Shown piece by piece: positions 6,369-49,747 of a DNA stretch of 51,095 nt. Positions within the stretch are counted from its first letter, which is position 1. The number at the start of each line of letters is the position of its first letter. The notes under the pieces are model-generated. The model saw only the letters and a list, made by a program, of their open reading frames with translations, had not been told where the DNA came from and searched no databases. Source of the stretch: Candidatus Methanoperedens nitratireducens (GTDB lineage Archaea > Halobacteriota > Methanosarcinia > Methanosarcinales > Methanoperedenaceae); the NCBI GenBank assembly GCA_020724545.1, contig DYGR01000021.1, positions 1 to 51,095 on the forward strand, in the 5' to 3' direction. The translations under genes and the position numbers were made by a program.

Positions 6369-6886
6369 TGGTATTAGGAGACATAATCAGGGTGGAAGAT
6401 GCGAATACGTATATAGTAAAAATACCGCCCGATGCTCAAAAGGAGTGTATCAGCAGGCTGGTGAAGATAAAAAAAGATTACGGGATTATAGTGGGTGTCA
6501 TAAAAAACATCGCTCATATAATACGCGAGGAGCTCATTCCTTATATTGATCCTGACATGCAGCCAAAGTATGCTCCTTTTAATGAGGATTTCAGGAACAG
6601 CTATTACACCGTTCATGGACTGGGGATAATCCGCAACGGGGTCGTGAAATACAGTATAGATTCACCGCCGGATATCGGGGATAGCCTTTCACTGCTTGGT
6701 CCGGATGAGCTAAGGGAATTCCATACCATTAATGGCAAACCCAGTATCGCGTATTTCCAGTCAAACAGAGATACGCTTGACAGATCAGTTCTTCTTGGCA
6801 TGGTGGAACAGGTAGAGGTGCATTATCCGGAATGCAGCGCGATGCTAAGACTGGTTAGAAAGTATATTGAGAGGGGCAAATGGTAG
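6368..6886 (+). CDS. unknown protein encoded between nurA and herA
   Basis: I do not recognise a named family in this 172 aa protein. It has no signal peptide or membrane segment and looks like a soluble mixed alpha/beta protein. The first ~45 residues (GDIIRVED...) vaguely recall the small beta-barrel (HAS-barrel) that starts HerA-type ATPases, but the match is too weak to assert. Its ATG shares bases with the nurA stop and its TAG stop lies inside the herA ATG region, so it is embedded in the resection operon. A role as an adaptor or regulator of NurA-HerA is inferred from position only. It is one of few genes here that end in TAG. Confidence 0.85.
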   Translation: MVLGDIIRVEDANTYIVKIPPDAQKECISRLVKIKKDYGIIVGVIKNIAHIIREELIPYIDPDMQPKYAPFNEDFRNSYYTVHGLGIIRNGVVKYSIDSPPDIGDSLSLLGPDELREFHTINGKPSIAYFQSNRDTLDRSVLLGMVEQVEVHYPECSAMLRLVRKYIERGKW

Positions 6887-28689: not shown

Positions 28690-28720
28690 CTGAAACAGAG
28701 CAAATCAAAACTAGATTTAT
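28690..28720 (+). repeat. 31-bp direct repeat, copy 1
   Basis: Perfectly identical to 29453-29483. It begins two bases after the stop of the 1259 aa gene, and with its partner it brackets the first acylphosphatase-coiled-coil gene. Confidence 0.9.
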
Positions 28721-28775
28721 GAATAGACAAGAAACCGCAGATACCTTTATTGCTATATGGGAAAAAGAAGTAACG

Positions 28776-29399
28776 ATGATGCGTGCAGCACTATACATCT
28801 CTGGCAGCGTGCAGCGAACGGGATACAGAACAAAAGTCGTATCAATAGCTAAAGCTCTGGACATAAGAGGGAATGTGCAGAACCTCCCGGACGGCAGAGT
28901 AAAGATCATAGCAGAAGGAGAAGAAAAAGATCTGGAAAGGTTTATTCAGGCAGTTGATATAAAAAATACGCTAATCAATGTCACTGATATTAAGAAGGAA
29001 TATTCTGCTCCTTCAGGGGAATATGAAAGTTTCTACAAGCTTGTCAGCGAAGGAGAAACTGATGAAAGACTTGACACAGCAGCGGATTTGCTCAAAGAGC
29101 TCATACATGTAACAAAAAATGGTTTCAGCAGTCTTGGAAAAAAGCAGGATATCATGATCGAAAAGCAGGACATCATGATCGAAAAGCAGGATATCATGAT
29201 AAGAAAGCAAGATGAAACAATGAGCAAAATCGATGAACTTGGAGAAAAACTTGGAAACAAGATCGATCAGAGCAGAACAGAGATCACATCTGAGATTCAC
29301 TTTCTCAGGGATGATTTCAGGACTCGTTTTGATGAGCGGCTTTCAAGGATAGAAGTTGAGTTAGCTGAAATAAAAGCAAAGGTCGCTGCAATCCACTAA
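28776..29399 (+). CDS. acylphosphatase-domain coiled-coil protein, paralog 1
   Basis: The 207 aa protein begins with an acylphosphatase-like fold (about 1-85): GSVQRTGYR supplies the anion-binding Arg18 and GNVQNLPDG the catalytic-type Asn36. Both key residues of the family are kept. A helical region follows, with three exact-looking heptads of the EKQDIMI type and a long coiled coil ending IEVELAEIKAKVAAIH. Such a fusion is not a normal free acylphosphatase, which is ~90 aa. I chose the start at 28776 because the paralog at 30758 begins directly with the domain; ATG 28719 would add 19 residues. The role is unknown. Confidence 0.82.
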   Translation: MMRAALYISGSVQRTGYRTKVVSIAKALDIRGNVQNLPDGRVKIIAEGEEKDLERFIQAVDIKNTLINVTDIKKEYSAPSGEYESFYKLVSEGETDERLDTAADLLKELIHVTKNGFSSLGKKQDIMIEKQDIMIEKQDIMIRKQDETMSKIDELGEKLGNKIDQSRTEITSEIHFLRDDFRTRFDERLSRIEVELAEIKAKVAAIH

Positions 29400-29586: not shown

Positions 29587-30426
29587 TCACTTTAGATAAA
29601 CATATGTCACCGGCAGAACGATGGCTGCAAAGAGCGCCCAGCCGAGGAAAGTGTGGAAGGTCAGCATTGTATCCAGACCGTAGTAGTAGCCTATGGATAC
29701 AAGGCCGAGTATCCTCAGCAGGTTTGAGATATAAGATGCAGCGAAAAGTATCACGGTTATCTTCAAAAGGCTGTGGTGATTTTTCAAAGGCATGGTGAGC
29801 CTGTATGCCAGCACTGTACTTAATATAAGGATCATGGAATAGAAACCAAAGCATCCCAGGTCTATTTTGTAGTATATATCATCCACTCCGTATGCATGGA
29901 ACGTGACCAGGGAATCCATGTGCAGAGAAAAGCCTGTGGACTGCAGTATAAACACAGCAGGTATGGTTGTCGCATAATAGCCGTAGTAATCATAGATGTT
30001 CGAGCCCATGCGTGAAGGCATGGCATACACGATCAAAAAGAACACGAGGAAAATGGAAGAAAAATAGACACCGAACTCGCCCATGCTGCTGACGCTTGTG
30101 TTTTTAATGCTGAGCGCTATAAGGGATATCCCCAGGAAAATGACCATGGTGTCCAGGGTCTGAATATCCGAACCTGCTGTGAAGTTATACAGGATATCGG
30201 CTGTTACAATAGCGATTCCTGACAGCAGCAGCTTTTTTGAGCCTTTCAGCCTGGGCTGGCCAGCACCTTTAAGTTTTATAAGCCTGGCGAGCAGGATCAA
30301 TGATATGATGAAGAAAATAAGCGCCAGATATACCGATCCTCCAAATCCAAAGGTAAGCTCAACATAGGAGGCTACGATGAGTATTATGAAAAGGACAAGA
30401 TTGAAATGCGGGTTTTTAAGATCCAT
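29587..30426 (-). CDS. archaeosortase (exosortase/archaeosortase family transpeptidase-like)
   Basis: The 279 aa polytopic membrane protein has the family's catalytic triad in order: Cys192 in DLGCFGFYSM, Arg238 in NLLRI and His258 in FHTFLGW. Archaeosortases cleave C-terminal tripartite signals on surface proteins and are thought to link them to lipid. A PEF-CTERM protein, the signal class processed by ArtC-type enzymes, is encoded at 49253 in the same window, which makes a PEF-type enzyme likely but not proven. It faces the opposite way to both coiled-coil neighbours. Confidence 0.87.
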   Translation of the reverse strand: MDLKNPHFNLVLFIILIVASYVELTFGFGGSVYLALIFFIISLILLARLIKLKGAGQPRLKGSKKLLLSGIAIVTADILYNFTAGSDIQTLDTMVIFLGISLIALSIKNTSVSSMGEFGVYFSSIFLVFFLIVYAMPSRMGSNIYDYYGYYATTIPAVFILQSTGFSLHMDSLVTFHAYGVDDIYYKIDLGCFGFYSMILILSTVLAYRLTMPLKNHHSLLKITVILFAASYISNLLRILGLVSIGYYYGLDTMLTFHTFLGWALFAAIVLPVTYVYLK

Positions 30427-30757: not shown

Positions 30758-31312
30758 ATGCAAAAACTTAAATTTACAATTAAAGGCAGTAAGGTGCATG
30801 ATACTGGTTACAGAGTATTGCTTGTCAATAAAGCCCTTTCTCTAGGTGTAAATAACTTTAATACGTTCAATACATATATCAACAGCACTCAGGCAGTAAT
30901 AGCGATCATTGAAGCTGGTGACGAAGTAATCGAGGAATTTAAAAATTTTGTTCTCACTTTTACTCCCAAAGAGGCTATTGTAGAAGATATATCTTTTGAA
31001 GGATATAAGAACACAGTTCCGCCTATAGAGCGCGTGATGCAGGCATTCCAGATGGAACAGTGGGGAAAGGGCATCCCAATACTTTTGAGTATGCTGGAAA
31101 AGCAGGATAAAATGCTGGAAAAGCAGGATTCTTTAATAAAAGTGACTGAAAAGGGATTCGCTGATATGAAAACAGGGTTCAGGGAGGTCAAGGAGGAAAT
31201 TCATCTTGTGCGGGATGACTTCCGTGAGATGTTCATGCGCGAAGTCAGCGATCTCAGAGGCGAGATAGCGGAGATAAAGGCTACGCTTGCCAGGATGCAG
31301 GAAGCGGGATAA
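30758..31312 (+). CDS. acylphosphatase-domain coiled-coil protein, paralog 2
   Basis: This 184 aa protein has the same layout as the 28776 product: an N-terminal acylphosphatase-like fold (KGSKVHDTGYR with Arg19; Asn42 aligns with the catalytic Asn), then a helical part with MLEKQDKMLEKQD heptads and a closing coiled coil (LVRDDFREMF ... EIAEIKATLARMQ). The glycine-rich loop VQGVG of true acylphosphatases is degraded to KVHDTG, so activity is uncertain. A GAAGGTG site precedes the ATG. The palindrome-TATA region upstream implies its own regulation. Confidence 0.82.
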   Translation: MQKLKFTIKGSKVHDTGYRVLLVNKALSLGVNNFNTFNTYINSTQAVIAIIEAGDEVIEEFKNFVLTFTPKEAIVEDISFEGYKNTVPPIERVMQAFQMEQWGKGIPILLSMLEKQDKMLEKQDSLIKVTEKGFADMKTGFREVKEEIHLVRDDFREMFMREVSDLRGEIAEIKATLARMQEAG

Positions 31313-31505: not shown

Positions 31506-32828
31506 GTGATTTTAACACAGAGCAACTGTCTCAGGATGAATAAAAACCAGTACGAGATAGTTCGCTCTTTGTGCAGGTATTCTAAAAACCTGTATAACGT
31601 TGGCCTATACACTGTTAGGCAATACTATTTCTTAAATGATAAATTCTTACCTTATGAAGAGAATTACCACTACTGCAAAACAAACGAGAATTATAAGCTA
31701 CTGCATAGTGATAATGCTCAACAGGCTTTGAAAGTGGTGGATAGATCAATGAAAAGCTTTTTCAGACTGCTTGGGGAAAGAAAGAGAGGAAATTATAACA
31801 GACCAATCCATACTCCGCACTATCTTGATAAAAACGGGTATTTTGTTTTAATATATCCCGTCGGGCATCTGGTGATTAAGAAAGGGTATGTATATTTAGG
31901 CATGAGTAAAAAGTTTAAGAAAGATAATAACTTAAATGGTAAGGATCTCAGGTTTAAAATACCGCCCAACGTCGATGGAAAAATACTCGAAGTAAGAGTA
32001 ATTCCAATACATAACGGCAAATACTTTAAAATAGAATATGTTTATGAAAAAATCGAAAACAAGATGCAGTTAGACAATTCTAATTACCTATCAATTGATT
32101 TAGGACTTGATAACTTTGCTACATGCATTGAAAGTGTTAACGGGACTGCCCAGATAATCTGTGGTAAGTACATAAAATCAATTAACCGTTACTACAACAA
32201 AGAGATAGCAAGGTTACAATCTATCAAAGATAAACAGAACATACAGGGATTCACTGACAAGCAATCTAAGATCACTGTAATCAGGCATAACAAAATCAAT
32301 GAATTCCTGAACAGAGCTGTCAATCACATAATTAATGTGTGTCTAGAGAATAAGATAGGTAATATAGTGGTAGGTGAGTTTGAAGGAATAAAGCAGGAGA
32401 TCAATCACGGCAAACGCAATAACCAGAATTTCGTAGGAATACCATATCACCTGTTCAAACGGAAGCTAAAATCGAAGTGTGAACGGTACGGTATCAACTA
32501 CGATGATCCGAATGAAGCATACACATCAAGGACTGATGCTCTTGCGTTTGATGAGATCAAAGAGCAGCCATACGGGAAAACAAGAAGGATTAAGAGGGGA
32601 CTGTATAAAAGCAGTACAGGCACTCTAATAAACGCTGATGTGAATGGTTCTCTTAACATCCTGAGAAAAGTAGCTGGTGATTCTCTCGTAAGAGAGACAA
32701 TCAGTAGAGGTCTTGTCAACAGACCAGAGAGAATAAGGTTAGCCTTTGAGACTAACAAACTTCTCTCGAATCAAAATGGAATGGCTACAGGCTATACCAT
32801 GCCTCCGACTTTAGTCGGGGGTAGTTGA
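31506..32828 (+). CDS. tnpB: TnpB, RNA-guided endonuclease (IS200/IS605, IS1341 group)
   Basis: This 440 aa protein has an N-terminal helix-turn-helix/REC-like part (about 1-180) and a RuvC nuclease with Asp198 (SIDLGLDN), Glu291 (VVGEFEGI) and Asp378 (LINADVNGS), all three catalytic residues intact. The zinc-finger segment between Glu and the last Asp (EAYTSRTDALAFDEIKEQPY) contains no cysteine, so the usual four-Cys finger is absent, as in a known TnpB subgroup. Start is GTG 31506 after a TATATATTTTA stretch. No tnpA is nearby, so movement would need a transposase in trans. The catalytic core looks functional. Confidence 0.93.
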   Translation: MILTQSNCLRMNKNQYEIVRSLCRYSKNLYNVGLYTVRQYYFLNDKFLPYEENYHYCKTNENYKLLHSDNAQQALKVVDRSMKSFFRLLGERKRGNYNRPIHTPHYLDKNGYFVLIYPVGHLVIKKGYVYLGMSKKFKKDNNLNGKDLRFKIPPNVDGKILEVRVIPIHNGKYFKIEYVYEKIENKMQLDNSNYLSIDLGLDNFATCIESVNGTAQIICGKYIKSINRYYNKEIARLQSIKDKQNIQGFTDKQSKITVIRHNKINEFLNRAVNHIINVCLENKIGNIVVGEFEGIKQEINHGKRNNQNFVGIPYHLFKRKLKSKCERYGINYDDPNEAYTSRTDALAFDEIKEQPYGKTRRIKRGLYKSSTGTLINADVNGSLNILRKVAGDSLVRETISRGLVNRPERIRLAFETNKLLSNQNGMATGYTMPPTLVGGS

Positions 32829-34222: not shown

Positions 34223-37200
34223 ATGGGGAACTTAAAATATCCGGGGCTGCTGCTTGTATTACTGCTGCCTGCTCTAATTAGCGGCGCATCGGCAGCAGTA
34301 TATGTAGAGAATGCATCAATATTTAATCTCAGCCTGAACACTGCGCCTGTGGAGCTTAATAGTTCATTCGATAGTGTCCAGCCCAGGATTTTCACAGAAC
34401 ATGCTGGTTCTCTACTCTGGCTAAATTTAAGCAAAGCTCCAGTTGAGCTTAACAGTTCATTAAATGCTGTTAGACCCAGGATATTCACTGAGCACCTGGA
34501 TACAATAATGAAGAACAACTTAAATAAAACTCCAGATGCTCTTAATAGCTCTTTGGCTCAAATCAGACCCCGGATATTTGCTGAACACCTGGATTCTCTC
34601 CTGATAAATAGCCTGGATGATACTCCCAGCGCACTTGATTCTTCTCTTAGTACTATTAGGCCGAGGATATTTACCGAACACCTTGATGCTCTCCTGAAGA
34701 GCGATCTCTCTGATACCCCAGGTGAATTAGATGCAAGCACAGCCTTGACCAGGCCGAGAATATTCACAGAGCATGTCGATTCTCTGCTTGTGTCACAGCT
34801 TAATGTCACCCCATCTGAGCTTGATAGTTCAGTAGGACAGGTTAAACCTAGGATTTTTATAGAATCCGCAGACATGCTGTGGTTCAAGTCGCTCATCAAT
34901 ATCACTCCAGACACAACCCCACCTGATAGTGTTGCTAATCTGAATGCATATTCTGCAGGCGCAACATGGATCAACTGGACATGGGATAACCCGAATAACA
35001 CAGACTTCGGGCATGTGATAATATATTTGAATGGAGCCTGGAAAGCGAACACATCGGCGGATCATTTCAATGCTACAGACCTGAGTCCGGATACGACCTA
35101 TGAAATTGGTGTCAAGACTGTAGATATATGGGGCAATGTGAATGAAAGTCTGGTTACGGATACGGCAAAGACGCTTGGAGATATTGTAGATACCACGCCG
35201 CCCGCATCGGTATCCAATCCAAGTACAACCGCAGGCAACTTCTATATAAACAACACCTGGGTTAATCCAGAAGATGCTGATTTCAGTTATGTATGGTTCA
35301 GGTATAGCAATGATACTACACTTCAGAACGTTAGTAATCCTACGAACTACCTGAATCTCACCTGGTCACCACATTATACCCAGAATATCAGTGCTCAGAC
35401 TGTGGATAATTCTGGTAACGTTAACCAGACGAAAGTATGGTTCAATGCAACTATACCGAACAATGCACCGGTACAAGCAGCAATTGGAGACAAGATAGTA
35501 ACCGAGGGAGATCTATTGACCTTCAGTGTGTCAGTCACAGATGCTGACTCAGATACAATAACATACGGTACAAATGCAACAGGAGGCTCACTTAATCCCG
35601 CAACAGGGGAATATTCATGGCAGACAGGCAGCGGCGATTCAGGGATATACGTCTGGTACTTCAATTCAAGCGACGGCTTTGGCGGTGTAGCTAGTGAAAC
35701 TATAACGATAACAGTAACTGTGAGTGCACCAACAGAATATATCCCGCCAGATCCAGTGAACCTTGCCAGCACGCAAGGAAACTTCTGGATCAACCATACA
35801 TGGCAGGCAGGAGCAGGCAATGCAACAGATAGTTATAACGTAAGTGTGAATGGCGTCTGGACAAACGGAACAACCAATACTTATTCTAATACATCAGTTG
35901 GTCCGCATGGATGGAGCAATATAACTGTATGGGCTTACAACAATTCAGGAAGCGGAAGTTTAAGTTCAGCCTCAGTATCACAGAACACACAGGTTGCAAA
36001 CAATGTCCCGATTCAAGAGCCAATTGGGGATAAGACCATAGATGAAAATCAGCCTCTGCAGTTCACAGTATCGGCTACAGATGCAGATTTAGATACAATA
36101 ACATATGGCACTAATGCCACAAAGGGAATCTTCAATACAACTACAGGTGAGTTCTCATGGACTCCGGGGTATGGAGATGCAGGAGTTTATGTCTGGTATT
36201 TCAATTCAAGCGATGGCTATGGCGGTGTAGCTAGTGAAACTATAACCGTAACTGTGAATGGTATATCAATTACATCTTCATTACCTGTAACTGATCCCAC
36301 CACTACAGTGGGTACAGCCCAGACATTTGAAATAAACCTTAACAGAATTGCAGATGTTACCTGGTATATCGATGGCTCAATGGTTCAGAATAACTTAAGC
36401 GCTATATCTGCATATTATACCAACTCAACGGCAGACATAGGAGTGTACAACATTACTGTAACTGCCAGTGATAACTATGATTCAGTCTCAAGAACATGGA
36501 GCTGGACTGTTACAGAGCAGCCTACTTATAATGTAAGCGGCTATGTATTCGATAATTATGGTTTGGGATTAGCAGATGTAGATGTCTTGGTGCATAATGG
36601 CAGTCACCAGAACACCACTATAGCATCTGGTTACTATCTGATAACTGGTCTGCTTAATGGCACGTATAACTTCAGCTATTCTAAAGTCGGATTTGACACT
36701 GGTTATTTAGAAGTAACAATTAGCGGCGCAGATATCATAAATGTGAATAAGATGATCTATGATACTATACCGCCTGCTCAGGTTACTGGGTTGATAAACG
36801 ATACTCCGACACAGACGACAGTTAACCTTAGCTGGAACCCAATAACAGATGCAAACTATTACCAGGTATTCAGAGATTTCACCAGTTTTGGATATACACA
36901 GAATACTTACTGGAACGATACAGGATTAACTGCCGATACCTTATATGAATATGTGATCAGAGCTAATGATTCATATAACAACTGGGGTCAAAACTCATCA
37001 ATTTTAAGCATTAATACTGCTCCTGCTGCTGATACTACACCGCCAGCAGGTCCTGTTCGCAACATCAACAAGGGCACCAGCTACACTACCATTCAAGCTG
37101 CTATAGACGATGCCAGCCCGGGCGATGAGATACAGGTGGACAGCGGAACGTATTATGAGAACGTGAATATAACCAAACAGTTAGTTCTTCGTGGTATTGA

Positions 37201-40200
37201 TAATGGTGGCGGGATGCCTGTAGTGGATGCAAGAATGCTTGGGAGCGCTATGAACGTCACTGATGATGGGGTGATAATCGAAGGATTCAGCCTGGTCAAC
37301 ACCAGTTGGGGTAACTGGCCAGACTATAATGCTGGATTGAAGGTCATATCCAACAACAATGTTATTCAGAATATTAACGCCTCGAATAATGTAGCATATG
37401 GTATCTATTTACAATACTCTAATAATACCATTTTACAAAATAGTTCTGCAAATAATAGTTACTACGGCATTTATGTTAGCCATTCTAATAATGTTACTCT
37501 CACAGAAAATACTGCCATATTTTATAATTCTTACGGAATAGTTCTTTCTTACTCGAATGATAGTAATTTGGAAAGAAATATTGCTTCAAATAATTATAGA
37601 GGATATTCAAGTAGTACTGGTATCAGAGTAGAGTATTCCAATAACAATACTATACGTGGTAATACTGCTACAAATAACTCTGATTGGTACGGTGGTTACG
37701 GCATTTATCTTTACTCATCAAGTTATAATTTCATCGTTGATAACAATGCCTCAAATAATGGTGGTTCGTACTATTCCTATTATGATGGAACAGGTGTCTA
37801 TATAGGATGGAACTCTAGTTATAACGTATTAATAAACAACACTGCTAATAATAATACCAACACAGGCATAGCTCTATCAGGCTCAAGCAATAGTACATTG
37901 CAGAGTAATTTAATGTCAGGTAACCGCTACAATTTTGGAGCCGGAGGTTACAACAACATTGATACAAGCAACCTTGTTGATGGAAAACCGATTTTCTACC
38001 TTGTAGGTGCTTCTGATACTATAATTGATTCATCCTCTAATGCAGGCACAGTTTACTGTATCGGCTGTAATAACATAACGGTAAAAGACCTGATCCTAAT
38101 AAACAACAGCAATGGCATTTACTTCTATAAAACCAACAACTCTAAAATACAAAACAATTATCTCAGAAATAATGGATATGGAATCTATATTGACTTGTCA
38201 AGTAACAATAACACTATTAAAGGCAATAATATCACCAATAACCAAAATAGCATGAATATAGCATCTTCCAGTAGTAACATCATCGTTGGCAATATAATCA
38301 ATAGCAGTGGCATTTCACTCTCTGGTTCCAGCAACAATACCATTGGCAGTAATACGCTCACCAACTCAGATCAGGCTGTATATACCTATAACTCTAACAA
38401 CAATACAGTTGAAAGTAATAATGCTAGTAGCAATGGATATGGGATATGGCTTCAGAATTCCAGAAATAACACTCTCAAAAGCAATTTTTTTAGTAATAAC
38501 AAATATAATGGCATTTCACTCTCTGGTTCCAGCAACAATACAATTATAAGAAACAACATCAGCAGTAACAACTTTAATGGTATCTCCATCTACTCCTCCA
38601 GCAACAACACCCTCTATCAGAACAACCTTGTTAACAATACTAATTATAACGCCTACGATTACGATGGCAAAAACCAGTGGGACAGCGGCACTTTAGGAAA
38701 TTATTACAGCAATTTTGACGAGCATTCAGAAGGGTGCTCAGACTTAAATGGTGATGGCATTTGTGATTCGAAATATTCGATTCCAGGCGGCAGCAGTGTG
38801 GACAGGTATCCGCTGACTAAACCCTGGGTACCAACACCAAACATCGGACCTGTTCATAATATCAACAAAGGTATTAATTACACAAGCATACAAGCAGCTA
38901 TCAATGACGCCAGTCCGGGTGATGTGATACTTGTAGACAATGGAACCTATTTTGAGAATGTAAATGTGAACAAACGGCTCACCCTGCGCGGCATAGACAA
39001 TGGCAGCGGTATTCCAGTAGTAGATGGAAGAATGATGGAAAGTGCGATCAGGATAACTGCAAATGGAGTGATGCTTGAAGGATTTGATGTTAGGAACAGT
39101 AGCTCAGGGATTTATGTTAGCTCTAATAATGTTATACTTAGAAATAACAGCGCTTCGAACAACTACCAGGGCATCTATCTAAGATATTCCAACAACAATA
39201 CACTCAGCAATAACACAATGAGTTTGAATAAAAACTACGGAATCTATTTAGAGATTTCCACTAACAACACGTTAACCAGTAACAATATTTCAACAAACAT
39301 GCGAGGACTTTTTGTATGGGGTAATAAAAAAGAAGATTTTAATAATAATATCGACTCCACAAACAAAATAAACGGCAAGCCTGTATACTATATATTTGAC
39401 CAGGAAAACGTTGTATTGGATCAAATAGACGCCGGTCACCTGTCTTTAGCTTACTCATCAAATTTGATAATTAAAAACAGTAATATTAGTGGTGACGGGG
39501 TTAGTTTACTATACTCTGGTAACAACGCACTTAGCTACAACACTGCTGATTCAAATTGGATAGGAATTCTCTTAGTTTCTTCTTTCAACAACACGCTAAG
39601 CGGCAATAACGCTTCGAACAATGACTACGGAGTCTATCTGTATTATTCTAATAATAATACGATAAGCCAAGGTACATCAAATTTGAATAATCAGTTAGGA
39701 ATATATCTATATAATGCTAAAAATAACACATTGAATGATAATAATATCTTGAACAATCAATATGGGGTCTATCTATCTTCTTCTAATAATAACAGCTTTT
39801 TCCATAATAATTTCATAAACAATACAAATCAAGCTATAGATGATAGTTATAACAATACATGGGACAACGGCTATCCTTCCGGCGGCAACTACTGGAGCGA
39901 CTACGCAAACTCGGATAATTTAAGAGGTCCACATCAAGACTATCCACCAGCAGATGGCATCGGGGACGTTCCTTATAACATAAGCGGCAGCGCAGGTGCA
40001 AAGGATAATTATCCATTTATGAAAGAGAATGGGTGGTTCGAGAACATTATACCGCCTGATAGTATTACAGAGCTTAACGTATCATCTTTAGGAACATCGT
40101 GGATAAATTGGACATGGAAAAATCCTGACAACATAGATTTCAGCCATGTGATTATTTATGTTAATGGCATTTTACAGAAGAATGTCACTTTACCTGTAAA

Positions 40201-43200
40201 CTATTACAATGCGACTGACCTGACTGCGGATACCGAATATACGATTGGCACACACACGGTTGACTTGAGTGGAAATATCAATCAGACGTGGGTTAATCAT
40301 ACTGCAAGGACAGCGCTGGCTGCAGTTGTGGATACCACGCCTCCAGCAAGTGTTACGGATTTGCATGCATATTCTGCAGGCGCGACATGGATAAACTGGA
40401 CGTGGACTAACCCTTCAGACCCCGACTTTGACCATACTATGATATATCTGGATGGAAGCTTCGCGGCCAATGTAAGTGAAACATATTATAATGCGACTGA
40501 TCTACAGCCAGGTACTATACACACAATCAGCACTCGCACCGTAGATATAAGTGGGAATGTGAATCAGACGTGGGTTAATAATACAGCGATTACAGCAGGT
40601 CACTTACCTGGCGGTCTGAATATTAATGTATACAAACCTGAAGATTATTCTGTCTATCCAGTCGGAGAGAAGTTAAGGTTCGAGATTGATGTTCAAGATG
40701 CTGCTGGGAATCCGGTTGTTTCTGGGATCTCAGCCTATGCTGTTCTCACAGATCCTAATGATATATCAAAACAGGTTATACTGTCAAAAGATGCCGATAA
40801 CTTGACCGGCGAATACATTGTTAGCAGAGAGGATGCTCGCGGCATCTGGACAATCAATATAACAGCTTATAATGATACTAATAGCGGTCAGGCATCTGTA
40901 AAGCTGTTGTTTACAGGTGCTTACTTTATCCAGCCCAGCAGTGATAAGCGATCATATATTTTTGGCGAGACTGCGAACTTCACTGCCAGAGTAGCGAAAC
41001 CTGGGGACATACCTCAAACCCTAACTGACAAGAACCTGAGTCTGAATCTATCAATATATCCCCTCAACAGCTCAATACCTGTATTGGAATCGGTTGAGAT
41101 GATGTTTAATAATACTGCTGGGGAGTTTTACAGAAATGTAGATACAAGCCTGCTCGGACCCGGCCTGTTTACAGTATTGTTTATTGGAAACGATACCTCA
41201 GGTGATATTGAAGTTGCAAGTCTATCGATTGGAGTCTCTGAGGACTTTACCGTAACTGTGGGTACGGACAGGACATATTATGATAGGGATGAACCTGTTA
41301 GCATTTATGGAAGTGTTAGGTTTGATAATAACAGTCCACTTTCAAATGCCAATATAAGCCTTCAGGTAAACCTGCAAGGTTTCACACGATCGTATTCAAC
41401 AATTACAAACGGAGCAGGTGAGTTCAACTATACGTTCCAGCCATTTGCAGTCGAAGCTGGCAACTATACAGTAAAAGCTACTGTGACAAACATTGGACTG
41501 TTGAGAACGGCTGAGAACTATTTCACAATCCACGGCCTATATTTATCTCCATCATCAGCTGCAGTCAACATGTCTGAGGATTCTACACAAATCATTAACT
41601 TCACGCTCTATAATCTGGGTGAAACGATATTAACAGGCATCACAGCAGGTGTGAAGGATCTTGACATATCTGATAACGTCTATATAATTATAGACCCCGC
41701 CAGTGTACCCACTGAACTTGGGCCTCATGAAAACGCGTCCATAACCCTGCAAATAAACGCAGGTAAACCTGTTCCTGATGAAGCAGTATTCCTTATAAAT
41801 GTTACAACCGACCAGATGTCAAATGAGTTCAGTGAACTGCATGTTAAATTGTTTCCACCAACTCCAATAGTGGCGCTTGAGCAAGATAACCTCATCATTG
41901 GCTTGAATAAAAACCAGACCGCTATAAAGACGGTCAAAATCTCGAATATAGGATATGGCGTCCTGCAAAATGTCACACTGCACCAGCCTGAACATAACTG
42001 GATGCGAATAACCTCAAATACCAGTCTCGGTAACCTCCAGCCGGGTGAAAACATCACATTTGATATTCATATTCAATCCTACAATGTAAATCTTGGAACA
42101 TACTATGATACAGTCAATATAACCAGCGATAACCATGAGACTGTGCAGGTTGATATTACTGCCTTTATAACCGATATGGCAAATGGCAGCCTGCTGTTCT
42201 ATGTCGAAGATGCTCTTGGTCGTAATATCAGTGAAGCGAATATCTTGCTCATTGATGAAACGACCTATCAGGAATATACAGCAATGACCAACTCCACTGG
42301 ATACGCTCTCATCAGCGGCCTTCCAGCCGGTCGTTACATCTACGAGGTTAGTCCCATTGATCAAAATATACTGCCTCAGCTTGGTTCGGTAGTAGTTGAG
42401 CCGATGGATATCCCGAAGAAGATCAATGTAACCTTGCAAGTTTCGTTCATCGACTTCGAATGGGATATAATACCAACAAGCATAGAGGACTGGTATCAGA
42501 TAATTCTCAGGATGAGATTTGAGACGGATGTACCTGTTCCAATCATAATAGCATTTCCGCCGTACCTTGAATATGACCTGAAACCCGGAGAAGTTAGATA
42601 TGAAACACTTACAGTAGCCAATCTGGGTCTGGTTTCAATTTATAATGTCTCAATCACATCAGCTATCAGTGGCAACGTTAAATTCACACCTATGGTATCT
42701 CAGATAGAGGAAATAAAAGCGAAGAGCAGCGTACAGTTGCCCTACATAGTAGAACTTTCCTCTACTGCTGACACATGCCAGAGATTTTCTGGCAGAGTGG
42801 ATATAACTGGTAAATACTTGCATTTCATAGATGGAAGGGCAGTTGCCAGTTATGCTGGAACGACAGTTCCGCTGGTTGTTAGAACGCCCAATATATGCGG
42901 TCCTCCCATCATTGAAAAAGGTTCGATAGCAGGTATGGTTACAAATGCAAGCGACGGCGCTCCTATATATGAAGCTGTAGTAACTGTAAAGGGTCGTTCT
43001 AACAAGACGGATGGCTCTGGTGATTATACAATAAATGGTATACCCGTAGGTATATACACAGTTACTGCTTCGAAAAAGGGATACTACGCATCTTCAAAAA
43101 CCGCTGCTGTAAGTAAAGATGCCACAACAATAGTCGACTTGCAGCTAGAGCCTATACCTGAAACCGCAATTACCACTGGTGCTGTAACTGGAACTGTTAC

Positions 43201-44665
43201 TGATTTAGATACTGGTGAGCGGCTTGAAGGAGCTTATATTGTTACAGATGGAGGTTATGCAACAACAGACCAGTCCGGCAGCTACACGATATTAGATGTA
43301 CCAACAGGCGTACGTAATGTAAGAGCCGAAAAAACAGGTTATTATTCTGCTTCAAAAAAAGTAACTGTGAATGAAAGCGATGTAACGATAGCTAACTTCC
43401 AGCTAAGTCGAATTGTTTTCCCACCGTTGCCTCCCATTCCTCAGCCAGATTTTTCATTTTGTATAAACGGTTATGGTGTTGGAATGACACCTGAACGCTT
43501 GAAAGATTTGCCCTGGTTGATTTGGATAAATAAAATAAATGAAAACACAACCGTTCGTCCAGCAGAGATAAAAGCAAGGAATAATAACATAGAAGGCGCC
43601 ATCGGATTGAGCGATGCCTTAGCAATAGCCTTTACTAAAAGTTTGGGTCTTGGTGATGTATTAAAATTGCGATTTAAGACTAAGATGGATATCGAAATAG
43701 ATTTAAAGAGTATGTTAGAAGAGGCTTATGGAAAAGAAATTCCCGCTTTTAAAATTTGGACTGGAACATTTGATCCTAAACAAATTAATCCGGAAGAAAT
43801 ATCGAGACTTAACTTAAATGAAATACCCACAAGCTATGGTGTTACTATTGGAGTTTCTCTGCCTGAGGTGACAGGTGGACTTGGAGGGCTTGTATTTGAA
43901 TATGGTCCTTATCCCCCTCCGGACAAGTTCAATTGTCTCTGGTTTATCCCCCTTGCATACTCGGAAGTTGATGGAGGAAGTATTAATATTGTGCTTCCTC
44001 CTTTGCCTGACTTTCCAGAATGGCCAGGTCTTCCAAATGGCGGTTCAGCTGATAGGAAGCCACCAAGACCGGTCATCACACATACCATACATGAGACGGT
44101 TATGCTTTCCATTTCTCAAAATGCAACCACGGAGCGCGATGCATTCTGGGCAGGCCTTGGTATTCGCAATAGAATGTCAGATAATAACATAGAGAATGTA
44201 AGAGTCAGGCTACAGATTACTGATGAAAATGGATTAAACGCCAATGAAAAATTCTTCATCAGAGCTCCCCAGCTTGATGGCATAAGTAATATCGATGGAA
44301 CTGGCAGGATATCCCCGCTCAAGCTTGCTAAAGCTCAGTGGCTGATCATTCCAAAGTCTGGAGCAGGCGGTACAAACGGACAAAAATATAACATTTCAGC
44401 AGATATTACATACAGTGTAGATGGGATCAGATTCGAGGTTTTAACTAAAAATATAGAGATACTGGTTAACCCCCAGCCTCAACTTACTCTTGATTACTAT
44501 ATTCCATCGGATGTTATTGCTAATAAACCGTTTAAACTTGCAGTCAGAGTAACAAACGATGGTTACGGCACGGCAAGGAACTTCTCAATAGACACAGCTC
44601 AGCCGGTTATATACAATCCCTCAGGACTGCTGATCGACTTTGAAATCATAAGGAGCGCTTTATAG
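34223..44665 (+). CDS. giant multidomain surface protein, N-terminal part (up to an in-frame TAG)
   Basis: 3480 aa with a signal peptide (LLLVLLLPALISGASA). Residues 26-230 are about six 31-residue repeats starting PRIFTEHLDSLL. Then come FN3 domains (231-409, 506-592, 851-938), cadherin/He_PIG-like Ig domains (411-502, 595-678), two NosD-type right-handed beta-helices (about 943-1536 and 1540-1936, each opening with a TTIQAA/TSIQAAI...DASPGD motif), two more FN3 domains (1941-2128), macroglobulin- and CARDB-like beta domains, and two carboxypeptidase-regulatory repeats (about 2901-3063). Sequons are very frequent. It would be an S-layer-associated adhesin or carbohydrate-binding protein. The stop TAG falls inside a beta domain, and coding resumes in the same frame at once, so this is probably only the first two thirds of one protein. 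Confidence 0.9.
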   Translation: MGNLKYPGLLLVLLLPALISGASAAVYVENASIFNLSLNTAPVELNSSFDSVQPRIFTEHAGSLLWLNLSKAPVELNSSLNAVRPRIFTEHLDTIMKNNLNKTPDALNSSLAQIRPRIFAEHLDSLLINSLDDTPSALDSSLSTIRPRIFTEHLDALLKSDLSDTPGELDASTALTRPRIFTEHVDSLLVSQLNVTPSELDSSVGQVKPRIFIESADMLWFKSLINITPDTTPPDSVANLNAYSAGATWINWTWDNPNNTDFGHVIIYLNGAWKANTSADHFNATDLSPDTTYEIGVKTVDIWGNVNESLVTDTAKTLGDIVDTTPPASVSNPSTTAGNFYINNTWVNPEDADFSYVWFRYSNDTTLQNVSNPTNYLNLTWSPHYTQNISAQTVDNSGNVNQTKVWFNATIPNNAPVQAAIGDKIVTEGDLLTFSVSVTDADSDTITYGTNATGGSLNPATGEYSWQTGSGDSGIYVWYFNSSDGFGGVASETITITVTVSAPTEYIPPDPVNLASTQGNFWINHTWQAGAGNATDSYNVSVNGVWTNGTTNTYSNTSVGPHGWSNITVWAYNNSGSGSLSSASVSQNTQVANNVPIQEPIGDKTIDENQPLQFTVSATDADLDTITYGTNATKGIFNTTTGEFSWTPGYGDAGVYVWYFNSSDGYGGVASETITVTVNGISITSSLPVTDPTTTVGTAQTFEINLNRIADVTWYIDGSMVQNNLSAISAYYTNSTADIGVYNITVTASDNYDSVSRTWSWTVTEQPTYNVSGYVFDNYGLGLADVDVLVHNGSHQNTTIASGYYLITGLLNGTYNFSYSKVGFDTGYLEVTISGADIINVNKMIYDTIPPAQVTGLINDTPTQTTVNLSWNPITDANYYQVFRDFTSFGYTQNTYWNDTGLTADTLYEYVIRANDSYNNWGQNSSILSINTAPAADTTPPAGPVRNINKGTSYTTIQAAIDDASPGDEIQVDSGTYYENVNITKQLVLRGIDNGGGMPVVDARMLGSAMNVTDDGVIIEGFSLVNTSWGNWPDYNAGLKVISNNNVIQNINASNNVAYGIYLQYSNNTILQNSSANNSYYGIYVSHSNNVTLTENTAIFYNSYGIVLSYSNDSNLERNIASNNYRGYSSSTGIRVEYSNNNTIRGNTATNNSDWYGGYGIYLYSSSYNFIVDNNASNNGGSYYSYYDGTGVYIGWNSSYNVLINNTANNNTNTGIALSGSSNSTLQSNLMSGNRYNFGAGGYNNIDTSNLVDGKPIFYLVGASDTIIDSSSNAGTVYCIGCNNITVKDLILINNSNGIYFYKTNNSKIQNNYLRNNGYGIYIDLSSNNNTIKGNNITNNQNSMNIASSSSNIIVGNIINSSGISLSGSSNNTIGSNTLTNSDQAVYTYNSNNNTVESNNASSNGYGIWLQNSRNNTLKSNFFSNNKYNGISLSGSSNNTIIRNNISSNNFNGISIYSSSNNTLYQNNLVNNTNYNAYDYDGKNQWDSGTLGNYYSNFDEHSEGCSDLNGDGICDSKYSIPGGSSVDRYPLTKPWVPTPNIGPVHNINKGINYTSIQAAINDASPGDVILVDNGTYFENVNVNKRLTLRGIDNGSGIPVVDGRMMESAIRITANGVMLEGFDVRNSSSGIYVSSNNVILRNNSASNNYQGIYLRYSNNNTLSNNTMSLNKNYGIYLEISTNNTLTSNNISTNMRGLFVWGNKKEDFNNNIDSTNKINGKPVYYIFDQENVVLDQIDAGHLSLAYSSNLIIKNSNISGDGVSLLYSGNNALSYNTADSNWIGILLVSSFNNTLSGNNASNNDYGVYLYYSNNNTISQGTSNLNNQLGIYLYNAKNNTLNDNNILNNQYGVYLSSSNNNSFFHNNFINNTNQAIDDSYNNTWDNGYPSGGNYWSDYANSDNLRGPHQDYPPADGIGDVPYNISGSAGAKDNYPFMKENGWFENIIPPDSITELNVSSLGTSWINWTWKNPDNIDFSHVIIYVNGILQKNVTLPVNYYNATDLTADTEYTIGTHTVDLSGNINQTWVNHTARTALAAVVDTTPPASVTDLHAYSAGATWINWTWTNPSDPDFDHTMIYLDGSFAANVSETYYNATDLQPGTIHTISTRTVDISGNVNQTWVNNTAITAGHLPGGLNINVYKPEDYSVYPVGEKLRFEIDVQDAAGNPVVSGISAYAVLTDPNDISKQVILSKDADNLTGEYIVSREDARGIWTINITAYNDTNSGQASVKLLFTGAYFIQPSSDKRSYIFGETANFTARVAKPGDIPQTLTDKNLSLNLSIYPLNSSIPVLESVEMMFNNTAGEFYRNVDTSLLGPGLFTVLFIGNDTSGDIEVASLSIGVSEDFTVTVGTDRTYYDRDEPVSIYGSVRFDNNSPLSNANISLQVNLQGFTRSYSTITNGAGEFNYTFQPFAVEAGNYTVKATVTNIGLLRTAENYFTIHGLYLSPSSAAVNMSEDSTQIINFTLYNLGETILTGITAGVKDLDISDNVYIIIDPASVPTELGPHENASITLQINAGKPVPDEAVFLINVTTDQMSNEFSELHVKLFPPTPIVALEQDNLIIGLNKNQTAIKTVKISNIGYGVLQNVTLHQPEHNWMRITSNTSLGNLQPGENITFDIHIQSYNVNLGTYYDTVNITSDNHETVQVDITAFITDMANGSLLFYVEDALGRNISEANILLIDETTYQEYTAMTNSTGYALISGLPAGRYIYEVSPIDQNILPQLGSVVVEPMDIPKKINVTLQVSFIDFEWDIIPTSIEDWYQIILRMRFETDVPVPIIIAFPPYLEYDLKPGEVRYETLTVANLGLVSIYNVSITSAISGNVKFTPMVSQIEEIKAKSSVQLPYIVELSSTADTCQRFSGRVDITGKYLHFIDGRAVASYAGTTVPLVVRTPNICGPPIIEKGSIAGMVTNASDGAPIYEAVVTVKGRSNKTDGSGDYTINGIPVGIYTVTASKKGYYASSKTAAVSKDATTIVDLQLEPIPETAITTGAVTGTVTDLDTGERLEGAYIVTDGGYATTDQSGSYTILDVPTGVRNVRAEKTGYYSASKKVTVNESDVTIANFQLSRIVFPPLPPIPQPDFSFCINGYGVGMTPERLKDLPWLIWINKINENTTVRPAEIKARNNNIEGAIGLSDALAIAFTKSLGLGDVLKLRFKTKMDIEIDLKSMLEEAYGKEIPAFKIWTGTFDPKQINPEEISRLNLNEIPTSYGVTIGVSLPEVTGGLGGLVFEYGPYPPPDKFNCLWFIPLAYSEVDGGSINIVLPPLPDFPEWPGLPNGGSADRKPPRPVITHTIHETVMLSISQNATTERDAFWAGLGIRNRMSDNNIENVRVRLQITDENGLNANEKFFIRAPQLDGISNIDGTGRISPLKLAKAQWLIIPKSGAGGTNGQKYNISADITYSVDGIRFEVLTKNIEILVNPQPQLTLDYYIPSDVIANKPFKLAVRVTNDGYGTARNFSIDTAQPVIYNPSGLLIDFEIIRSAL
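44663..44665 (+). other. in-frame amber codon splitting the giant gene
   Basis: 34223 and 44687 are in the same frame (10464 bases apart, divisible by 3). Only eight codons separate this TAG from the next start-like codon, and the peptide across the site (FEIIRSAL, then GENRSNSLKINFGDISPGE) reads as one domain. The combined frame is 5007 codons including the final stop. A nonsense mutation, a sequencing error, readthrough or pyrrolysine are the options. Confidence 0.9.
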
Positions 44666-44686
44666 GGAGAGAACAGAAGCAATTCA

Positions 44687-47600
44687 TTGAAGATAAACTT
44701 TGGCGACATAAGTCCCGGCGAGAGCAAGCTGGCATGGTGGGAGATGGTTACCAGTATAGACGGCACCTTCACAGAATTCACTGGAGAATACATTCACAGT
44801 AGCGAGCTGGGTGGAATGGGAACTTCGCTGATAAAGCAACTCAACACGAATATAATCCACAGGGAAATTGACACTGGGGATGTTACCTATGACCTCCTTG
44901 TAACGCCTAAGAATGATGAAACATATTACCTGCTTCTTGATCCAAATACTGGGAGTTCCACGCCTGTATCTATTGCGAATTATACAGTAGTTAGCAGCCC
45001 GACACCGGATAATCCAAACATGGACATAGGTATAGAGGATCTGACCGGGAAGTGGGTTATCGTCTCGATTGAGGATCCTTATGACAATAAAGTGCCGATT
45101 CTTAAAGTTATAAGGGAAAGAGATGGTTCAGAAATTGCGCCATATAACTACTGGATGCGAAATGGTAGAATACTAATTGTTGATCACTATACTGAAGGGT
45201 TTGATGGGAAGTATAAGATCTTATATAGTACTCCCGCACCATCTCCAACACCAACCCCGACTCCTACACCAGCTCCACAAACCGGAAAGCGGGTTGGAAT
45301 TCAGGCTGGTCACTGGCAATATGATAGCGGCGCGATCGGGTGCGATGGCCAGACTCGCGAGGTAGATATAAATCTCGCAGTAGCCAACAAATCCGCAGAA
45401 ATCTTGCGCCAACGCGGATACACAGTGGACGTGCTCCCATCGGCAAGTGCACCAAATAGTCCTGTACCTGGCTATACAGCCGACGCCTTTGTGGCTTTGC
45501 ACGCCGATTACTGCGCTGGTGAAAATACTGGCTTTAAGGTCTCACGCTATGGTGGGGCTAAAGGCACTGGCAAACTCGGAAATGGTGATGCATCTGATCA
45601 ATTGGTGGATTCTTTGTGGTCAGCATACGGCGTAGCCACAGGCCTGCCTTACGACACAAGCCCAGGTCACTTTACCGATAATATGATATATTACAATGCG
45701 CTCAACCTTATTGCAAAGAGCACGCCCGGCGCGATAATTGAGATGGGATGGTTGTCGGGAGACCTAGCGTTCATGACGAGTGCAGAGGGTCAACAGAAAA
45801 TGGCAACTGGAATCGCCAATGCTGTGGATCAATTCTTACACCAAGCACCCAATCCACTATCTGATTTAAAACAATTAAAATCAGATGGAACAACACAAAT
45901 AATTATCGGGGGTGCAACTGATGAACGTACTGTTATATTCAGTGCCAATGTAAACGATCCTGATGGTAATAAAGTAAAACTTCAGGTAGAGTTAAGACGC
46001 CTGGATGAATATGATGGAAAATTTGATGAAACTAAGGGAGGATTAAAAGAGAGTGGTCTCGTTGCAAGTGGAAGCACTGCTACAACTTCTGCAATTGAAT
46101 TGATATATGGTAGCTATCATTGGCGGGCGAGGACTATAGATGAGCATGGGAAAGCAAGTGATTGGGTAGAATTTGGAAATAATCCTACATCAGATGCTGA
46201 TTTTATTGTTGTAAAACAGATAATAAAATTACTGATAGTACCAACCAATTACACCCGAAATGGAAAATACCATGGGATGACAACTCCTGAAGACATAGAT
46301 AAATTAAAAGATCTAGCAAAGAAATCGCAGGAATTTTATTTAAAATCATCATATGGTTCTATTTATTTAGAGTTCGACTTTTACGATCCAATCATCACTT
46401 TAAGAAGAAATTGGAATTTTATGGTAGTTGTAAGGGATGTACTGGAACAATGTCCAAATTGTTTTGATTCATATGATACTCTTGTTGTAGTTAACGAAAC
46501 TTATGATTATGAACGATCCGCCAAAGGTGAGGCTTTTCCTGCTCGTTCTTTTGAGAAATCATATCCGATAGCAGTCGTTCCTTTTATAGGTGATGATTTT
46601 GGTACTTGGGTGCATGAAATAGGTCATACACTAGGCTATACGGTAAAAAACAGTACAAGGCATAATAATCCCAACACTTTACTTTGGGATCTTTATTATA
46701 AAGGTAAAATTGGTGGGTTAGATGATAATAGGATGAATCTAGGGAATGTGTATTGGTGGGATTTAATGGGCTATGGAGCAAATGTTTACGACAGCAAAGA
46801 AGATAATCGAAAAAGTCAGCCAACAGATATGTCATCATTGAGTAAAACTGAACTCGGATGGCTAACTAGAGAAGAAATTACTAAATTTGGTAGTTACCCA
46901 ATAACGTCACTGGAAAATATGCATTACGGCGGTTCTGCTTTGGTATTTAAACCTCCTAATTCTGAACCACGGGGGTATGAAGTCGAATATTCAATTGAAG
47001 CAAGAGAATTATTGCAACCAAGTTTAGGAGAATTAAGATATTTCGAAGGACTAAGATATTTAGAAAAATTAGATCAATTATTATGGTTTAATCTAGAGAA
47101 TGGAATCATAATTTATAAAAATAAAACATATCCAGATGGTAACGTATCGATTAATGTTCTTAGTAATTCATGGTTACCTATTCCCCATGATCCAACATTT
47201 TTAGCCAATGAAGGCACTTCTGCCAAGCCATATACGGATATCAATCATTTTGTTAAATTTAGTGTCTCAGCATCGTATTTAGACTATCCTTACCGTGCAG
47301 AAATTCAAATAAGTCCTTGCGATATATGTAAATCAATTAAAGGAGTTGTGCTAACAATTACTAAACCTCCTTTATGGCTTCTGACACCTTCATGGAATCC
47401 TGCCTATCACAACTTGGCTTATCCCGATCTCGATCTCCACGCATACACAACGGATGGAAAGCATGTGGGCATGAACTATACCAGTGGTGAGTACGAGATG
47501 CAAATTCTTGGTGCATTCACTTCTGGAGACCTAATTAATGGCGAAGAGTGGATATTCGTTCCAAAGGATACACAGGTGAGTTATTATGTGAGTAGCCATG

Positions 47601-49243
47601 ATGTCCAGAAGTACTTAGAAGAGAATCCTGATGTGGACGCTACAAATGCAACAATGGAATACATCACTATCTTTATGGAATATGGTGAAAATCCGCAACG
47701 GGTGCAACTTCCAGATGGGAACTGGACTGTCACAAATAGAACTGTTTCTGAACCTCAGATGGATACTATTGAACCTGGAATTATAAAAGAAAAATTAGTA
47801 GATATTACCCCACCAACAACAACCGCTGTGTTTTCTGGAAATCTCGGCAACAACGATTGGTACACCTCTGATGTCCAGGTAAATCTCACCGCAGCCGACA
47901 ACGAAGGCGGCTCAGGTGTTAATACTACTGAGTACAGCTTTGATAATGCAACCTGGACTACCTATACCGCTCCATTTGCAATCACTAACGAAGGAACAAC
48001 GACACTTTATTACCGCTCAACCGACAGCGCAGGCAATATCGAACCAACCAGGATTCAGGTAATTAAGATCGATAAGACACCGCCTGCCTCAATCACCAGT
48101 CTCCAAGCTACCGCAGGCGAATCCTGGCTCAACTGGACATGGACGAATCCAACAGATAGTGATTTCAACCATACTGAGATATACCTCAACAGCACCTTCC
48201 TAACCAACACCTCAGCACCGCAAACCCACTACAACGCCACAGGCTTGACCCCAGACACACTATACGAACTCAGCACCCGCACGGTGGACACCTCAGGCAA
48301 CATCAACTCAACCTGGGTCAACGCCACAGCCCGCACCCTTGCCGCGCCTGACACTGTGCCGCCTGTGATCACGAATGTCAGCGCTGCATCTGGTACTGAT
48401 AGCGCTGTAATAACCTGGGACACAGATGAGGCTTCGGATAGCCTTGTTAAGTACGGCACCTCGTCTGGAAGTTTGACACTTTTTGCTAACAGCAGCGAAA
48501 TGGCTCTAAAGCACTCGCTCACCCTCTCCAGCCTTGCGCCGGATACCATCTATTATTACGTGGTGAACAGCACGGATGCGCAGGGCAGTTCGAACGAGAG
48601 CACAGAGCATACATTCAGGACGCTGGCGCCTGCTGATGATGTGCCGCCCGTAATCGACTCCATTACCCTATTCCCTGCCAGCACCACCGCAGGCTCTCTC
48701 ATCAACATCAGCGTGCTTGCCTCTGATAATGTTGGCGTGGCAGAAGTAACCGCAGACGGCAGCCATCTCACGTACTCAGACGGGCTCTGGCAGGGCAGCA
48801 TAACCGCAGCCTCTTCTGCTGGCAGCTATACAGTTAACATAAGAGCAAAGGACGCAGCTAATAATGTTGCTGAATCAACAGCAGCTTACACAGTTGTCGC
48901 ACCCACGGGCGGCCTCGGTGTAGGAATATCTCCAATGAGCACCACGGTGACCGCTCCGGCTACTATAAACTACAACATAAGAATCAAGAGCACTGAGAAT
49001 ATCGATGACATCATCCGCGTGTATGTCTCCATGGACGGCTTAAGTTCAAGCTACCATATGCCCCTGACATGGTTCAACTGGACAGAGAAAACCGTAAAAC
49101 TATCAGCAGGCAGTGAAACAGTCATACCCCTTACATTAAACATTCCATCAGACGCAGCAGGAAAGAAGGCGTTCCGCATCAAAGCTGAATCCATTCTCTG
49201 GACATCAAAAGCACAGGGCACTGCTGTAATTACAATATCATAG
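44687..49243 (+). CDS. giant surface protein, C-terminal part with amidase_3 and metallopeptidase domains
   Basis: 1518 aa from a nominal TTG; real coding continues from the TAG at 44663. After a beta domain and a PTPTP linker comes an N-acetylmuramoyl-L-alanine amidase (amidase_3) domain (about 200-388) with zinc ligands His209, Glu225 and His272 and catalytic Glu352 (IIEMGWLSG). An M6-like metallopeptidase region (about 511-900) has HEIGH (His643-His647) and a WWDLMGYG turn. OmpL47-like, FN3 and other beta-sandwich domains follow to the end. No own signal peptide and no CTERM anchor are seen, so export depends on fusion to the upstream part. The PEF-CTERM gene follows by 9 bases. The stop is TAG. 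Confidence 0.88.
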   Translation: MKINFGDISPGESKLAWWEMVTSIDGTFTEFTGEYIHSSELGGMGTSLIKQLNTNIIHREIDTGDVTYDLLVTPKNDETYYLLLDPNTGSSTPVSIANYTVVSSPTPDNPNMDIGIEDLTGKWVIVSIEDPYDNKVPILKVIRERDGSEIAPYNYWMRNGRILIVDHYTEGFDGKYKILYSTPAPSPTPTPTPTPAPQTGKRVGIQAGHWQYDSGAIGCDGQTREVDINLAVANKSAEILRQRGYTVDVLPSASAPNSPVPGYTADAFVALHADYCAGENTGFKVSRYGGAKGTGKLGNGDASDQLVDSLWSAYGVATGLPYDTSPGHFTDNMIYYNALNLIAKSTPGAIIEMGWLSGDLAFMTSAEGQQKMATGIANAVDQFLHQAPNPLSDLKQLKSDGTTQIIIGGATDERTVIFSANVNDPDGNKVKLQVELRRLDEYDGKFDETKGGLKESGLVASGSTATTSAIELIYGSYHWRARTIDEHGKASDWVEFGNNPTSDADFIVVKQIIKLLIVPTNYTRNGKYHGMTTPEDIDKLKDLAKKSQEFYLKSSYGSIYLEFDFYDPIITLRRNWNFMVVVRDVLEQCPNCFDSYDTLVVVNETYDYERSAKGEAFPARSFEKSYPIAVVPFIGDDFGTWVHEIGHTLGYTVKNSTRHNNPNTLLWDLYYKGKIGGLDDNRMNLGNVYWWDLMGYGANVYDSKEDNRKSQPTDMSSLSKTELGWLTREEITKFGSYPITSLENMHYGGSALVFKPPNSEPRGYEVEYSIEARELLQPSLGELRYFEGLRYLEKLDQLLWFNLENGIIIYKNKTYPDGNVSINVLSNSWLPIPHDPTFLANEGTSAKPYTDINHFVKFSVSASYLDYPYRAEIQISPCDICKSIKGVVLTITKPPLWLLTPSWNPAYHNLAYPDLDLHAYTTDGKHVGMNYTSGEYEMQILGAFTSGDLINGEEWIFVPKDTQVSYYVSSHDVQKYLEENPDVDATNATMEYITIFMEYGENPQRVQLPDGNWTVTNRTVSEPQMDTIEPGIIKEKLVDITPPTTTAVFSGNLGNNDWYTSDVQVNLTAADNEGGSGVNTTEYSFDNATWTTYTAPFAITNEGTTTLYYRSTDSAGNIEPTRIQVIKIDKTPPASITSLQATAGESWLNWTWTNPTDSDFNHTEIYLNSTFLTNTSAPQTHYNATGLTPDTLYELSTRTVDTSGNINSTWVNATARTLAAPDTVPPVITNVSAASGTDSAVITWDTDEASDSLVKYGTSSGSLTLFANSSEMALKHSLTLSSLAPDTIYYYVVNSTDAQGSSNESTEHTFRTLAPADDVPPVIDSITLFPASTTAGSLINISVLASDNVGVAEVTADGSHLTYSDGLWQGSITAASSAGSYTVNIRAKDAANNVAESTAAYTVVAPTGGLGVGISPMSTTVTAPATINYNIRIKSTENIDDIIRVYVSMDGLSSSYHMPLTWFNWTEKTVKLSAGSETVIPLTLNIPSDAAGKKAFRIKAESILWTSKAQGTAVITIS

Positions 49244-49252
49244 GAGGAAAAA

Positions 49253-49747
49253 ATGAAGAATACAACAACAATTCTATTAGCAGTTATACTGCTGCTTTCG
49301 GCAGGAACAGCTTCAGCAAATCCGGGAATATCTGTAACAGTAACTTCGATCAAAGATGTTGTTACGTCAGGTGAGATCGCTAAATATGAAGTGACAGTCA
49401 CTACCTTGCCAGAGGCCGATGATACTGAAAGCGTACATCTGTTTGTAAATAACCCTATGCCAGGCTGGACATATACCTTTGCTGATAACGACTTTGATAT
49501 CGGCCCGCATCCTGATACAAAAACCGTTACTTTAGAAGTGGGTGTTTTAGCAGGAACTGCGCCTGGCACATATCCCCAGACGATCAATGCAAGTACGACC
49601 TACCTTGGCATTACCGACTTTGAGACCAGTGATTTCACTACCTACGTGTATGTCACGATCCCGGAGTTCCCAGCCATTGCCCTGCCCCTGATCTCGATAC
49701 TGGGAATGATACTACTGATATCGAGGCGGAAGGGAAGAGGTTCATAG
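49253..49747 (+). CDS. PEF-CTERM surface protein
   Basis: The 164 aa protein has a signal peptide (TTILLAVILLLSAGTASA), one beta-sandwich domain (about 25-130) and a C-terminal tripartite sorting signal: IPEFPAIALPL, a hydrophobic helix, then RRKGRGS. This is the PEF-CTERM class cut by archaeosortases; one is encoded at 29587. It starts 9 bases after the giant gene behind AGGAGG, so it is translated from the same mRNA and may be the membrane-proximal partner of the giant protein, which lacks an anchor. The stop is TAG. Confidence 0.92.
   Translation: MKNTTTILLAVILLLSAGTASANPGISVTVTSIKDVVTSGEIAKYEVTVTTLPEADDTESVHLFVNNPMPGWTYTFADNDFDIGPHPDTKTVTLEVGVLAGTAPGTYPQTINASTTYLGITDFETSDFTTYVYVTIPEFPAIALPLISILGMILLISRRKGRGS

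Follow-up and report, generated by a model that had tools for sequence, protein, structure and literature searches.

A single in-frame TAG divides a giant surface-protein gene of Candidatus Methanoperedens nitratireducens and probably marks a recent nonsense allele

In-frame TAG codons at positions where orthologues have CAG are a documented pattern in prokaryotes, as described in the part of Belinky et al. (2021, PMC7918605) considered here. Some members of the archaeal order Methanosarcinales decode TAG as pyrrolysine, and the order also has large multidomain secreted proteins. Here we describe an in-frame TAG at positions 44663-44665 (forward strand) of a 51,095-nucleotide stretch of DNA, the window, from Candidatus Methanoperedens nitratireducens (contig DYGR01000021.1 of assembly GCA_020724545.1), where it divides the gene of a giant surface protein. 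The window is the entire contig C54, one of the 88 contigs of a genome bin that totals 2,916,969 bases, with completeness estimated at 99.96 and contamination at 5.44%. Its first gene shares 95% identity with the corresponding gene of Ca. Methanoperedens nitroreducens strain ANME-2d, and the matches that rank next come from other Methanoperedens or from archaea without a name. As far as that part of Belinky et al. describes such events, this one is of a known kind, an in-frame nonsense allele in a prokaryotic gene: the TAG occupies a position where relatives have CAG, the frame is open on both sides, and the downstream part is still conserved. It differs from the alleles described there in that the stop occurs in one archaeal genome and is absent from six relatives. 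The locus shares with the pyrrolysine-encoding genes of methanogens an in-frame TAG in a Methanosarcinales genome, but the gene is not a methylamine methyltransferase. The protein resembles the large secreted proteins of the order in its NosD/beta-helix, CarboxypepD_reg, and Ig/fibronectin-like domains and in its signal-peptide-like start. In contrast to these, it includes an 867-amino-acid stretch with an Amidase_3 domain and a HEIGH motif; across 30 other genomes of the genus, this stretch is matched only by an 89-residue piece in G015 and nowhere at full length. Search listings of open-licence papers included none that reports this gene or describes a Methanoperedens nonsense allele.

The giant frame runs from an ATG at 34223 to a stop at 49243 (5,006 codons), and TAG 44663 is its sole internal stop; apart from it the frame is stop-free, and there is no other disabling lesion. 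The two open reading frames (ORFs) on either side, 34223-44665 (3,480 amino acids) and 44687-49243 (1,518 amino acids, TTG start), lie in the same frame, as an earlier note made from the sequence had said when it proposed that one in-frame TAG splits a surface-protein gene. That note placed eight codons between the TAG and the second ORF; we counted seven. The TTG at 44687 is the first possible restart, and the first in-frame ATG past the TAG is codon 27 downstream. From 44666 to 49243 there are 1,525 codons without a stop. With the TAG read as a residue, the frame from 34223 passes three TAGs, at 44663, 49241, and 49745, and the second and third of these have the look of natural gene ends. 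The one at 49241 looks so because the module ending at 49243 also closes the one-piece, 4,108-codon frame of the relative G085. The one at 49745 does so because it ends the frame 49253-49747, which opens with a signal-peptide-like stretch of its own and matches PEF-CTERM at the cut-off.

We searched a 546-residue piece around the TAG against 185 genomes of the order, the genome itself included (E value, 1e-10), and obtained matches in 7, so that the gene was present in 6 of the 184 others. Within the genus, only G002 carries the site region besides the genome under study. In all six relatives the site falls within one open frame of 2,555 to 4,211 codons, and the aligned codon is a sense codon: CAG in three, and CAA, GAG, and GTG in one each (Gln in four, Glu in one, and Val in one). 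No homologue was seen that ends and restarts here as two proteins, an arrangement that the earlier note had considered. The alignment of all six spans the TAG without a gap there, with G054 and G085 aligning only ∼60 residues beyond it; in tblastn searches the alignments of four relatives cross the TAG unbroken, and that of G054 (L007) covers 275 residues only. Identity to the three nearest relatives (G002, G046, and G042) is 71 to 74% before the TAG and 66 to 69% after it, and identity to G134 is 43 to 46% on both sides. An earlier search at an E value of 0.001 gave matches in 8 of 60 genomes, the genome itself included. Among its hits were weak partial matches in G008, G009, and G015 (E values, 5.9e-4 to 8.4e-4) as well as an additional weak match in G002 (C109), all of which were dropped from the count of six. 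The site is covered by just one of these, the G008 match, which did not reappear in a tblastn search at an E value of 1. One scan of viral contigs gave no relative of the gene.

The TAG lies near the middle of a conserved core module of ∼385 residues (44072-45226, forward strand), defined by alignment with the relatives, and the module aligns on either side of the TAG. This agrees with the earlier view that the peptide on both sides belongs to one beta-rich domain. As judged from sequence comparison, the locus is one gene broken once and not two genes, since the aligned codon is a sense codon in 6/6 relatives and the conserved module continues across the site. A single frame carries the core and C-terminal modules in G085 and, in G046, the core module and a putative protease region (a 37% match to the HEIGH-motif region). 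G134 has no match beyond codon 187 downstream, and the tails past the core module vary among relatives.

The TAG is probably a nonsense allele of recent origin, by which a giant secreted surface protein is truncated; it would be an ordinary loss-of-function mutation that involves no special code. This was one of several options in the earlier note and is the one that the sense codon in every relative and the lack of any added lesion now favour. The TAG would have arisen by one substitution in a sense codon, most likely a Gln codon like those of the four relatives closest in sequence. Uninterrupted, the gene would specify a single secreted surface protein of ∼5,005 residues. Most likely, translation stops at the TAG, which would leave a secreted protein of 3,480 amino acids with its last conserved module halved, and the tail with the Amidase_3 domain and the putative metalloprotease would not be made in quantity.

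Conservation was similar in the two parts of the gene. In five-sequence trees, the window branch measured 0.295 upstream and 0.331 downstream of the TAG, so the downstream half is not visibly relaxed; in both halves this branch was longer than those of G002, G042, and G046. The codon composition of the 1,525-codon downstream part predicts ∼176 stops for each unit of neutral divergence, and none was seen. This limits unconstrained divergence of the downstream part to at most ∼1.7% (∼0.6% with an assumed indel rate). Together, the equal conservation of the halves and the absence of a further downstream stop suggest an event that is recent, polymorphic, an error in a consensus base, or tolerated.

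Several points weigh against a recent nonsense allele. The nearest relative with the gene is only ∼68% identical, and no closer one was found; because of this, the term "recent" draws on the absence of further lesions. The estimate of synonymous divergence (dS) was saturated and failed for 7 of the 10 sequence pairs upstream of the TAG and for 3 of the 10 downstream, so that the ratio of nonsynonymous to synonymous divergence (dN/dS) was unusable. Equal conservation downstream is also expected if the tail continues in use by readthrough. Finally, the TAG base is known from the consensus assembly alone. We infer that the population truly carries this base, that it arose recently, and that it terminates translation. 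It is unlikely that the TAG is instead a consensus-base error or a minority strain allele in a metagenome assembly and that the gene is intact in most cells. The contamination estimate and the number of contigs given above leave room for a bin that mixes strains or organisms, and the lesion is one base in an otherwise unbroken gene. However, no stop occurs among the other 5,005 codons counted from the ATG, which points to a good assembly, and the site region is present only once in the bin.

The taxonomic setting makes pyrrolysine, which the earlier note had raised, an obvious thought: PylS was above the cut-off in 2 of the 7 genomes tested, both of them relatives with the gene (G085 and G134). 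In the genome under study, however, profile searches for PylS, PylD, and PylB gave best scores far below the cut-offs (29.5 versus 178.15 bits, 22.2 versus 150.05 bits, and 81.1 versus 348.2 bits, respectively). This negative covers those three proteins, PylC and tRNA-Pyl not having been searched directly; in each Pyl model search, 1 of 14 control genomes was above the cut-off. The two PylS-bearing relatives use sense codons at the site, Val in G085 and Gln in G134. A count of TAG-ending genes, which the earlier note had proposed, showed TAG to be an ordinary stop here: it terminates 63 of the 328 ORFs that reach 150 amino acids or more in the window plus 20 stretches of 20 kb (400 kb of genome), and 4 of 24 hand-listed ORFs in the window, with TAG 44663 included in both counts. 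TAG as the terminal stop of the genes ending at 6886, 49243, and 49747 was confirmed in all three cases. Given the low Pyl scores, the use of TAG as a stop, and the Gln and Val codons of the PylS-bearing relatives, pyrrolysine at this TAG is unsupported, and we regard its probability as practically negligible.

Among 41 tRNA matches (ARAGORN, with hand reading) there was no CTA anticodon in a list that is incomplete (Tyr and Trp, for example, are also unlisted); this line of evidence is weak because several expected tRNAs are missing. Two candidates for a reader of UAG were rejected. ARAGORN reported the anticodon "ccta" for L096, but read by hand its loop is that of an intron-bearing tRNA with the anticodon CCT (Arg); four other intron-like matches read by hand had CAT, CCC, TTC, and TTT. 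L103, a Leu tRNA with a "tag" anticodon, pairs with CUA codons and not with UAG. Other split genes were likewise set aside as a sign of genome-wide recoding, since same-frame pairs include ordinary neighbouring genes. Of the three pairs inspected, L124 and L131 were clearly neighbouring genes and L129 was a spurious frame after a gene end.

A tolerated stop with functional low-level readthrough, by which a small share of the molecules would carry the enzyme tail, is distinctly unlikely. The near-equal conservation of the downstream half and the 1,525 codons that stay open would fit it, and such cases have been proposed for bacteria in the part of Belinky et al. (2021, PMC7918605) considered. 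On the other side, none of the six relatives shares a stop at the site, the 120 nucleotides after the TAG fold like shuffled sequences (z, −0.35) with no readthrough hairpin better than the shuffles, and the incomplete list of 41 tRNA matches holds no suppressor tRNA. We judge it quite improbable that the stop is kept on purpose, with a leaky UAG and no pyrrolysine giving mostly a short surface protein and a few long ones with the amidase/protease tail. If the stop were kept and read through, this would be a rare archaeal case of dosage control by a leaky stop; no data here require that. The earlier note had also considered phase-like on/off control of the enzyme half. Within 401 bp around the TAG there is no direct or inverted repeat of at least 12 bases, and with no second copy of the site region in the bin we saw no switching device at the site.

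Gene fission, with a second protein initiated inside the gene, for example at TTG 44687, is very improbable. The TTG lies close behind the TAG, and a GGGAGAG stretch directly after the TAG might suggest a ribosome-binding site. By eye, however, this stretch is ∼17 nucleotides from the TTG, too far for a usual site of that kind, and it codes for a Gly-Glu that is conserved in the relatives. The break also falls in the middle of the conserved module, and the second part, as the earlier note had observed, has no signal peptide at its start despite its secreted-type domains. The product of any internal restart would therefore lack a signal peptide and would remain intracellular.

The upstream part of the interrupted gene (34223-44665, forward strand) was delimited as an ORF with Pfam and NCBIfam matches and ends at the TAG. 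It has an N terminus that is signal-peptide-like as judged by eye, followed by Ig-like/fibronectin-like domains, NosD/parallel beta-helix regions, CarboxypepD_reg repeats, and the core module up to the TAG. A genus-mate (G015:C7:309792-334239) has many tandem pieces that are 67 to 88% identical to the Ig/fibronectin-like region and lacks the core module. The downstream part (44666-49243, forward strand) consists of the rest of the core module, a Pro/Thr linker, the Amidase_3 domain (45293-45829, forward strand; Pfam match, 2.5e-12), the HEIGH-motif region, and OmpL47-type and fibronectin-like domains. The HEIGH motif was located by string search (codon at 46613) and marks a putative metalloprotease, for which Pfam and PDB sequence searches gave no supporting match. 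Amidase_3 is a peptidoglycan-type amidase domain, found here in an archaeal surface protein; archaea are generally not known to have murein. For the core module, a PDB sequence search gave nothing significant (best E value, 0.45), and a structure predicted from the single sequence was too poor for use (mean predicted local distance difference test score [pLDDT], 38.1).

The frame at 49253-49747 (forward strand) is a gene of its own, outside the interrupted gene, for a small secreted protein with a PEF-CTERM-like end (TIGR03024, 23.1 bits versus a cut-off of 23). The window also holds an archaeosortase C gene (29587-30426, reverse strand; TIGR03762, 145.6 bits versus a cut-off of 100), of which the PEF-CTERM-like protein represents the presumed substrate type. 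Two forward-strand genes, 28719-29399 and 30758-31312, flank the archaeosortase gene and have an acylphosphatase-like N terminus and a coiled-coil-like tail, the match of the second being weak. A TnpB-family gene (31506-32828, forward strand; NF040570, 165.6 bits) lies a short distance upstream of the giant gene.

Automated gene calling would yield two genes at this locus, one of them an enzyme that seems to have no signal peptide, in a place where a single giant secreted protein is encoded in relatives. The explanation of the TAG as a probable nonsense allele also removes a tempting but wrong case for the use of pyrrolysine in Methanoperedens.
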